From contig DAOVHI010000101.1 of NCBI GenBank assembly GCA_030671985.1, forward strand, positions 1 through 5,076: a DNA stretch of 5,076 nucleotides. The letters run 5' to 3'. The position numbers and the translations under genes were made by a program. Origin of the DNA: JAHJDO01 sp030671985 [NCBI: bacterium]. GTDB lineage: Bacteria; JAHJDO01. The stretch's first letter is position 1, and each line of letters opens with the position of its first letter. Below, piece by piece: positions 1,088 to 3,652 of this stretch. A model generated the notes under the pieces. It made no database searches and was not told where the DNA came from. It worked only from the letters and a program-made list of their open reading frames with translations.

Positions 1088-1152
1088 AACATATACCATT
1101 GAACCGCTACCTTCATTTTGATACGGTAGCAGACAATTGTGTAAACTGTCAA
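1088..1152 (+). repeat. Dispersed repeat A, copy 1 (inverted partner at 2908-2972)
   Basis: These 65 bases match the reverse complement of 2908-2972 at 60 positions with no gaps (mismatches at 1096, 1115, 1139, 1146 and 1147). An internal hairpin, GCTACC (1106-1111) with GGTAGC (1125-1130), is kept in both copies. It does not code for anything recognisable. The ACAATTGTGTAAACTGTC side faintly resembles ends of IS256-type elements, but that is only an impression. It lies 5' of short motif B (1174-1200), and the same order and relative orientation recurs in copy 2. Confidence 0.85.
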
Positions 1153-2683: not shown

Positions 2684-2692
2684 TGAAGATTG

Positions 2693-2726
2693 CCTGTCTC
2701 GGGTGTAAAGATAGTGTAAAGACAGG
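2693..2726 (+). repeat. Stem with two tandem GTGTAAAGA repeats beside the left att site
   Basis: CCTGTCT (2693-2699) can pair with AGACAGG (2720-2726). The loop and stem edge hold two direct copies of GTGTAAAGA (2703-2711 and 2714-2722) at an 11-base period. Being about one helical turn apart and 20 bases inside the left repeat, they could be protein-binding sites such as integrase arm or excisionase sites. The function is inferred only from position. Confidence 0.35.
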
Positions 2727-2777
2727 TACTAACTTTCCCTTCCATGCCAATACGGACGTAATGGGTATAACAAGGAC

Positions 2778-2799
2778 AAAAGGGGACAGCGACCTCTTT
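2778..2799 (-). repeat. Short motif B, copy 2 (GGGGACAG-type)
   Basis: AAAAGGGGACAG (2778-2789) equals the reverse complement of the end of motif B copy 1, and CGACCTCTTT follows. It has the same position relative to repeat A as in copy 1, though the distance is greater (108 bases against 21 to the start of the 1174 hairpin). The copy is inverted with respect to 1174-1200. Confidence 0.5.
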
Positions 2800-2813
2800 C
2801 ATTAAATCCCCGA

Positions 2814-2868
2814 AATAATAAAACTTATTATTATACAGCTATCAACTTAATAATAGGCATAGCTATGC
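2814..2868. repeat. AT-rich hairpin and 12-bp palindrome
   Basis: AATAATAA (2814-2821) can pair with TTATTATT (2825-2832) around a three-base loop. GCATAGCTATGC (2857-2868) is a perfect palindrome. Both fall in the spacer between motif B copy 2 and repeat A copy 2, which has no coding signal. The palindrome could be a dimeric regulator site, with no supporting context. Confidence 0.35.
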
Positions 2869-2907
2869 AAACCGGAAAAGTAAAGCTCGTTTTTCTGAAT
2901 ATATTTC

Positions 2908-2972
2908 TTGACGTTTTACATAATTGTCTGCTACCGTATCAAAAAGAAGGTAGCGGTTCAATGATATATGTT
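2908..2972 (-). repeat. Dispersed repeat A, copy 2
   Basis: This is the inverted partner of 1088-1152 (60 of 65 identical, ungapped), about 1.76 kb away. It abuts the GC-rich hairpin element starting at 2971, so the edge of repeat A coincides with the edge of another element. It shows that a repeat family of the surrounding chromosome is also present inside the tRNA-bounded segment. Confidence 0.85.
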
Positions 2973-3163
2973 CCCGCCGCTAACGCGGCGGGAATGACGG
3001 AATTGCGTGTTATCTCTCGTGACTTGCTCCGCCGCGTGGGGCTGGAACAAGTCATTCGAGACGGACACTCCGCTGAAGCGGACTGCCGCCTTGCCGTCGC
3101 TGATGAACGAATGCAAACATTCGCTTGACGCGTCGTCTGCGGTTGCCACTCAATTCCGTCATT
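2971..3163. repeat. GC-rich multi-hairpin element with inverted terminal repeats (REP/MITE-like)
   Basis: These 193 bases are 59% G+C, far above the AT-rich surroundings. TTCCCGCCGC (2971-2980) and GCGGCGGGAA (2985-2994) make a perfect 10-pair hairpin with loop TAAC. AATGACGGAATTG-C-GTG (2993-3009) is the inverted partner of 3147-3163 at 16 of 17 positions. Inside are GACTTGCTCC/GGAACAAGTC (3021-3030/3044-3053, one mismatch), TCCGC/GCGGA (3069-3073/3078-3082), CGAATG/CATTCG (3108-3113/3118-3123) and GACGCGTC (3127-3134). CATTCCCGC...GCGGGAATGACGG-type hairpins are a known widespread REP style. Open frames crossing it show no family likeness. It could be a non-autonomous transposable element or a structured RNA. 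Confidence 0.7.
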
Positions 3164-3569
3164 AGGTAGATAAAAGATATGAAAGTTTTATTAAAAATAT
3201 TAGTGATTGGAATAATTTATGGGTTTTTTGGTTATTTTCTGTATCGTGGGAGAGTTCTCACCGAAAATAAACTGTTAGAATATGATTTCATAGTATTTTT
3301 TGCACCAGCCATATTGGCGACATTGGCTAATATGTTTGCTTTGTGGAGCATTTTATCTGATAAAATCAACAGTTTTGCACGTTTTGGTTTGGTTTTTGTG
3401 CTTTCGCTAGGACTCGCAGTACTTGTTGCTATGATATATTTTACTGTAGCATTTAATTTGTACGGGACATGAAATTATCTGCTTAACAATCCACTGAAGC
3501 CGACGTGGAATAAGCGCTTGTGGCAGCAAAGCTGATTTATGTTATTTCCCACGCGGCTTAGTTCAACCG
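3162..3569 (+). mobile_element. Complete integron-type gene cassette (one ORF plus attC)
   Basis: The order matches a textbook cassette: TTAGGT at 3162-3167 (fits the TTRRRY cassette 5' end), a 17-base leader, one ORF (3179-3472), eight bases, then an attC site ending at G3569. Circularising the segment would join G3569 to TTAGGT, making GTTAGGT, a perfect GTTRRRY core. That core can pair at all seven positions, two of them wobbles, with the R'' box GCTTAAC (3481-3487). The junction now present, GTTAGAA, pairs less well. No integron integrase, attI or second attC is visible, so it is a lone cassette or the single visible member of an integrase-less array. Confidence 0.75.
3179..3472 (+). CDS. 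Small three-helix membrane protein carried by the cassette, function unknown
   Basis: The 97-residue protein is not recognised. Three hydrophobic segments are clear: about residues 3-22, 36-59 (with Pro43) and 69-93. They are joined by short charged loops (RGRVLTENK and DKINSFAR), with lysines 2 and 6 near the N-terminus, so it should be an inner-membrane protein. There is no Cys or His cluster or enzyme motif. The ATG at 3179 has only a weak upstream AGG (3164-3166, too far), so translation may be poor or leaderless. Such weak sites are common for cassette genes, which usually borrow a promoter from the integron. The stop lies eight bases before the attC R'' box. Its AT-rich composition contrasts with the GC-rich element just upstream. 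Cassettes often carry small membrane proteins of unknown role. Confidence 0.7.
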   Translation: MKVLLKILVIGIIYGFFGYFLYRGRVLTENKLLEYDFIVFFAPAILATLANMFALWSILSDKINSFARFGLVFVLSLGLAVLVAMIYFTVAFNLYGT

Positions 3570-3575
3570 TTAGAA
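3481..3575 (+). other. attC recombination site
   Basis: R'' is GCTTAAC (3481-3487, an exact RYYYAAC). R' is GTTAGAA (3569-3575, GTTRRR then A). Between them, the left arm at 3493-3508 pairs with the right arm at 3549-3562: ACT/AGT, AAGCCG/CGGCTT and CGTGG/CCACG. Exactly two bases of the left arm, G3496 and A3503, are left extrahelical. This is the landmark that integron integrases use to choose the bottom strand. AATCC and TCAACC form the unpaired central spacer. AATAA/TTATT (3509-3513/3542-3546) extends the stem into the variable terminal region. The length (95 bases) is normal for attC. Consensus rules are recalled; the pairings were read directly. Confidence 0.82.
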
Positions 3576-3601
3576 GGGAAAAAGAAAGTTGAGAATAAAT
3601 A

Positions 3602-3652
3602 GTTCTCAGCCATGGAACAGGGGTTCAATTCCCCTTGGGGCTACCAAAGTTA
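3602..3652 (+). repeat. Right att-like repeat: orphan 3' half of tRNA-Glu (attR candidate)
   Basis: This copy starts at the final base of the 5' anticodon stem and runs through the anticodon loop (CTC kept), T arm and acceptor 3' strand. It has no D arm or acceptor 5' strand, so it cannot make a tRNA. It is identical to 2633-2675 and continues to 3652 with one mismatch (C3645). It ends five bases before the accA stop codon on the other strand. The lack of decay over 43 bases suggests recent integration or continuing selection as a recombination site. Confidence 0.85.

Follow-up and report, generated by a model that had tools for sequence, protein, structure and literature searches.

A predicted integron gene cassette with an attC site, and no integron integrase over the family cut-off, in a tRNA-Glu-bounded insertion of a candidate-phylum bacterium

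The stretch of DNA analysed here (the window) is a 5076-bp contig (C143) of the draft genome of the bacterium JAHJDO01 sp030671985 (G000; 1.25 Mb in 152 contigs, 92% complete), whose phylum is represented in the genome set by five genomes, all of one genus. One strand of the window carries the genes of a glycosyltransferase/DUF2062 protein, MC1 and a ComF-like protein together with tRNA-Gln and tRNA-Glu(CTC), and accA and the gene of a YkuD protein lie on the opposite strand after the tRNA-Glu side. At the tRNA-Glu gene there is a 969-bp insertion (2684–3652), and this insertion holds the element in question, a predicted integron gene cassette (3162–3569, + strand) that runs from a TTAGGT start to the G of the R' box of an attC recombination site. 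We conclude that 3162–3569 is a genuine integron gene cassette.

The attC site occupies 3481–3575 (+). Reading of the window letters placed R'' (GCTTAAC) at 3481–3487, L'' at about 3495–3502, L' at about 3554–3560 and R' (GTTAGAA) at 3569–3575. Within the L boxes, AAGCCG (3497–3502) is complementary to CGGCTT (3554–3559), and T3495 pairs with A3560, so that G3496 is extrahelical; A3503 is likewise unpaired, and is followed by CGTGG (3504–3508) paired with CCACG (3549–3553). The R and L box pairs, the extrahelical bases and the conserved AAC/GTT of attC sites are thus all present in 3481–3575. The window was then searched with a covariance model (R1) built from 26 attC sites from outside the host genome, which came from three plasmid regions and from four contigs of a viral collection, with the R and L helices entered by hand before model building. 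In these 26 sites 90% of the cells pair, and their covariation score was reached by none of 500 shuffles. The results showed that 3481–3575 on the + strand scores 38.7 bits (E 2e-9, covariance-search E-values being rough), and that the remaining seven matches among those listed in the window score at most 10 bits. The second-best match, at 3040–3167 directly 5' of the cassette (10 bits, E 0.33), is not claimed as an attC site. When the attC was compared with plasmids by blastn, all matches were weak: they came from 6 records, the best had an E of 3, and the query was never covered to 80%. The site resembles the attC of class 1 integron cassettes that we take to be called aadA-type, the shared motif itself (R'' TAACAA, L'' AAGCCGA, L' CGGCTTA and CGTTAG) agreeing with our alignment A2, but differs in its length of 95 nt with a longer middle and in an R' box that ends in AA.

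The open reading frame (ORF) of the cassette (3179–3472, +) fits tightly between TTAGGT at 3162–3167, which has the TTRRRY form of a cassette start, and R'' at 3481, and TTAGG lies 17 nt 5' of the ATG. At the present junction the R boxes pair at 5/7 positions, with one wobble, whereas in the predicted circle of the window cassette they pair at 7/7, with two wobbles. A preliminary description of this DNA had proposed the attC anatomy with G3496 and A3503 extrahelical, the tight fit of the ORF and the better pairing of the circle junction, all of which were borne out; the covariance check that it put forward gave a strong score, with the purpose-built R1 and not with the model of IntegronFinder. 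The 97-aa product of the ORF matched no family in Pfam, NCBIfam or PADLOC, and AlphaFold, run with a two-row alignment, predicted three helices (mean pLDDT 69.9, pTM 0.43).

Relatives of the cassette were sought in 84,980 species genomes with six short peptide patterns from the 97-aa product, a scan that detects close relatives only. One locus was found (L015), at bases 99–389 of contig JAFGNJ010000028.1 in a Deltaproteobacteria metagenome-assembled genome (MAG; isolate Zod_Metabat.542). The two proteins are identical at 79 of 97 residues (81%), and the dN/dS between the two ORFs is 0.17, suggesting from the sequences that the cassette ORF evolves as under purifying selection. In a DNA alignment anchored at the ATG, 13/17 bases are identical from TTAGG to ATG and 3/20 just outside the TTAGG boundary, the identity of the whole upstream region (21/81) being at chance level. 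On the 3' side each copy enters its own attC, of 95 nt in the window and 72 nt in L015 (25.2 bits with R1). The flanks of the two cassettes are unrelated, and the unit is thus found elsewhere with other flanks, in one relative. The L015 copy has a G before its left junction, and circularization raises its R-box pairing from 5/7 to 6/7. According to the preliminary description, close relatives that carried the ORF without an attC, or with conserved unrelated flanks, would have spoken against a cassette; the sole relative has an attC, the same left boundary and flanks unrelated to those of the window.

Because the phylum of the window is represented in the genome set by five genomes of one genus and that of the MAG is far larger, the MAG belongs to another phylum. 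The cassette has probably moved between lineages. The MAG carries two integron integrases (IntI) over the cut-off of the family model TIGR02249 (265 bits), scoring 418 and 410 bits, on its contigs C29 and C30. Since the cassette is on a different contig of the MAG (C3), no claim can be made that these IntI move it. No match to the ORF was found among plasmids by tblastn, and in phages blastn with the cassette matched a single stretch of 30 bases (E 0.1). A peptide pattern was matched by 352 viral-contig stretches, none of which held a relative, and when 395 genomes were taken from the larger total for the phylum of the relative, the MAG itself was the sole match. The start of the L015 contig has a hairpin resembling the tail of a further attC, and R1 gave no score there.

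No IntI over the TIGR02249 cut-off was found in the host genome or in its four congeners (G001–G004; 62% to 96% complete, G001 being 62%), that is, in 0/5 genomes of the genus. The best match in the host genome reached 73 bits against the 265 required, and its best matches omit the middle of the profile (184–241 at C136, 181–236 at C83), presumably the location of the extra domain of IntI. Short recombinase fragments below the cut-off do occur in the host genome, for example in G000:C54 and G000:C42. With no IntI over the cut-off in the host genome, no complete integron in the sense of an intI gene with an adjacent attI was found. The preliminary description had reported no integrase nearby, which can now be extended to the assembled genome and the four congeners; its term 'lone' is apt for the window and not for the genome, which has five attC matches.

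The insertion that surrounds the cassette was not part of the earlier finding. The tRNA-Glu(CTC) gene (2602–2675, +) is intact, being completed by the left copy of a 51-bp direct repeat (2633–2683, +) made up of the 3' portion of tRNA-Glu and a further 8 nt, and the right copy (3602–3652, +; 98% identical) joins the native downstream flank. In all four congeners the insertion is absent and tRNA-Glu continues straight into the accA-side flank, within which the G001 contig ends. A direct repeat of a tRNA 3' end around an insert that is missing from relatives typically points to a tyrosine-recombinase element that integrated at the tRNA gene. No ORF longer than that of the cassette is present in 2684–3652, and hence no integrase lies inside. 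The cassette may either have been inserted into this island or have arrived with it as cargo. Two further features lie to the left of the cassette. The segment 2778–2972 is a repeat, perhaps a miniature inverted-repeat transposable element (MITE)-like element, with whole or partial copies at four other places of the host genome: contigs C29, C30 and C100 and, inverted, window positions 1088–1152 (1088–1170). A 171-bp imperfect palindrome (2993–3163), whose 17-nt arms are 94% complementary, ends with its right arm at the left boundary of the cassette; the fold of 2985–3170 has a z of -6.28, and no second copy was found in the host genome at E ≤ 0.001.

When R1 was run on the five genomes of the genus, it gave 15 matches at E ≤ 0.1, that of the window included, with scores from 42.9 to 20.8 bits (five in G000, three in G002, five in G003, two in G004 and none in G001); the weakest of them may be chance. 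The 15 matches are on 15 different contigs, and the neighbouring genes differ where inspected, except for a site beside mutS common to two species. ORF lists cover 10 of the 15 sites: at seven, including that of the window, an ORF ends 3 to 40 bases before R'', two have an ORF that reads into the attC, and one (G003:C48) has no clear ORF. For comparison, 144 genomes were treated with one set of filters throughout, 139 of them from outside the genus. An R1 match at E ≤ 0.1 was present in 25/139 genomes outside the genus against 4/5 inside, and an IntI over the cut-off in 18/139 against 0/5, eight outsiders having both. Among genomes without such an IntI, 17/121 outsiders and 4/5 of the genus had an attC match (Fisher p 0.003), which is only a hint because the five genus genomes are related. 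Thus, attC sites without IntI are not rare.

Several of the sites have recognizable neighbours. In G004:C14 (L034), whose genome has no IntI over the cut-off, a Septu-like pair of defence genes (PtuA/PtuB) lies directly 5' of an attC that scores 41.2 bits. A gene for a dienelactone-hydrolase-like protein precedes the attC of G003:C49, and in G000:C92, where two attC matches stand in series (13.2 bits upstream, then 26.6 bits), the gene before the attC has a weak Ysc84 match below the Pfam cut-off. The match in G003:C80 (L045:1501–1561; 25.1 bits) has a degenerate R''; it lies at the 3' end of a gene of the Ham1 family, the frame of which reads into it. The top attC of the host genome (42.9 bits, G000:C69) is preceded by the gene of a 344-aa protein (L033:455–1489) with no Pfam or PADLOC match. 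Flank proteins were checked for Pfam domains; the names ppdK, mcsA and rdgB were given by eye, as was that of the ComF-like protein of the window, which has the domains DZR_2 and Pribosyltran.

Three attC-bearing inserts have an insert-free counterpart in a congener. The gene of a UVR-motif protein adjoins that of a PEP-utilising enzyme in G003:C83, and in G000:C133 the two are separated by about 922 bp that include an attC; inserts of 2.15 kb in G002:C96 and 2.19 kb in G003:C34 are missing at the matching places of G003:C32 and G004:C90, respectively. Other changes are mixed into all three inserts. Beside the 3' end of mutS, G002:C81 and G003:C49 differ in the genes and in the attC sites that they carry and have the same R' (GTTATTT), followed by a shared flank, which the cassettes of the two congeners meet at the same base (L059:17321–17396 and L064:9246–9304). 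This fits two insertions, or a cassette exchange, at one site. No attC match was found at the mutS site in G004:C38 or G000:C75, and that end of mutS is not reached in G001; a remnant attC suspected by eye in G000:C75 received no R1 score. At G000 C69 and C120 the right flank is also present in congeners, where different sequence occupies the position of the cassette, and no empty site can be defined.

From the attC site, the boundaries given by one relative, the lack of an IntI over the cut-off and the scattered attC matches in the genus, we arrive at the following reading, to which we assign a probability of about 0.85: a real cassette was inserted by an outside IntI at a non-integron site in the tRNA-Glu island and is now apparently stranded. 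The integron integrase would have come from outside the lineage, either acting in trans or supplied by a helper element that has since disappeared, and would have recombined the circular cassette through the bottom strand of its folded attC. Its target would have been a secondary, attG-type chromosomal site within the island. The cassette now looks stranded, with an apparently intact attC and no IntI found to move it. We infer four parts of this account, namely the agency of an IntI, the strand, the secondary attG-type site and the present mobility.

Some observations weigh against this reading. The folding energy of the attC is ordinary: on the bottom strand z is -1.41 and 17/200 shuffles fold equally well, and the top strand is also unremarkable (z -1.44). 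A crude stem scorer gives 30.8, which is not decisive alone because scores of at least 30 are frequent in random sequence (1659 times in 54.66 Mb). Both results would suit a chance palindrome beside an unrelated short ORF, an explanation that we reject as extremely improbable in view of the R1 score and of the copy in another phylum, which ends in another attC and has a sharp left boundary. A G before the crossover is the expected rule for attC/attI junctions, and the base 5' of TTAGGT is A3161; this base is contributed by the target rather than the cassette, and another base may occur there when the site is a secondary one. The sample of relatives is small, since a single one was found, and the drafts, being incomplete, could conceal an IntI. 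None of the three inserts with insert-free counterparts ends at R'; they extend 43, 115 and about 900 bp beyond the R' box. As the entire island is absent from the congeners, they offer no empty version of the exact insertion point of the window cassette. The short contig in a draft of 152 contigs might also suggest misbinning of foreign DNA, but the order MC1, ComF, tRNA-Gln, tRNA-Glu, accA, YkuD is kept in the congeners at 80–96% protein identity, MC1, ComF and both tRNAs being present in 4/4 and accA and YkuD in 3/4 (locus L010 ends earlier), and we dismiss this explanation as well, its likelihood being minimal.

The island itself offers another route of arrival, as cargo of a tyrosine-recombinase element that integrated at tRNA-Glu after an IntI had acted in the donor. 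The 51-bp repeat around an insertion that 4/4 congeners lack is what such an element would leave, whereas the 969 bp hold no integrase, and they also contain a repeat present at four other places of the host genome; we regard the cargo route as a real possibility that falls short of an even chance. It is rather improbable that the cassette is what is left of an integron or cassette cluster that the ancestors of this lineage had and that decayed in place after loss of intI. The two successive attC matches of G000:C92 would suit such a remnant, but the 15 genus matches are on as many contigs and, where inspected, beside different genes (the mutS site excepted), four attC-bearing insertions are missing from at least one congener, and no IntI over the cut-off was found in five genomes, though short recombinase fragments below it do.

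The window attC is the sole match above 10 bits on its 5-kb contig and has no IntI nearby, and the cassette is therefore a single attC lacking an integrase (SALIN), as defined in PMC12690207; in IntegronFinder usage, several attC sites that stand together and have no integron integrase are called a CALIN. IntegronFinder 2.0 reports clusters from two attC sites upward, and single sites can be true, according to PMC9024848. As described in PMC9668308, an IntI from an external source can still excise or capture cassettes that have none of their own, and 8/9 archaeal attC sites recombined with attI1 at the control frequency. The window resembles SALINs and CALINs in its attC with a tight ORF and in the lack of an IntI, nearby or over the cut-off genome-wide, but differs in its phylum, which is represented here by a single genus, its nesting in a tRNA-Glu insertion and the further scattered attC sites of the genus. 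Loot et al. (2024, Nat Microbiol) are said by papers that cite them to have reported cassettes inserted at genomic attG sites. Such sites are described in PMC12901181, which cites Loot et al. 2024. The present case is alike in having cassettes at chromosomal sites outside any integron, and the window differs in the A left of its junction, in that no IntI source was found in the genome and in lacking an exact empty site. Titles and opening lines of abstracts on attG sites, on SALINs and CALINs in candidate phyla and on cassettes and tRNA islands gave nothing on this lineage, a weak negative.

The window cassette is thus another example of an already known type, an attC without integrase, in an interesting genus-wide setting. 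It documents one cassette common to a lineage of a candidate phylum and a Deltaproteobacteria MAG that has IntI, as well as a genus with scattered attC sites in which no IntI was found. Speculatively, and with the odds against it, a phylum-level lineage without an IntI of its own might repeatedly acquire integron cassettes from its neighbours by way of trans-acting IntI, storing them singly at dispersed, partly repeatable chromosomal sites. The site at the mutS stop codon would exemplify such an 'integron without an integron'. Because the congeners offer some insert-free places, the genus could serve to find out where, outside integrons, cassettes insert naturally in bacteria other than laboratory strains.
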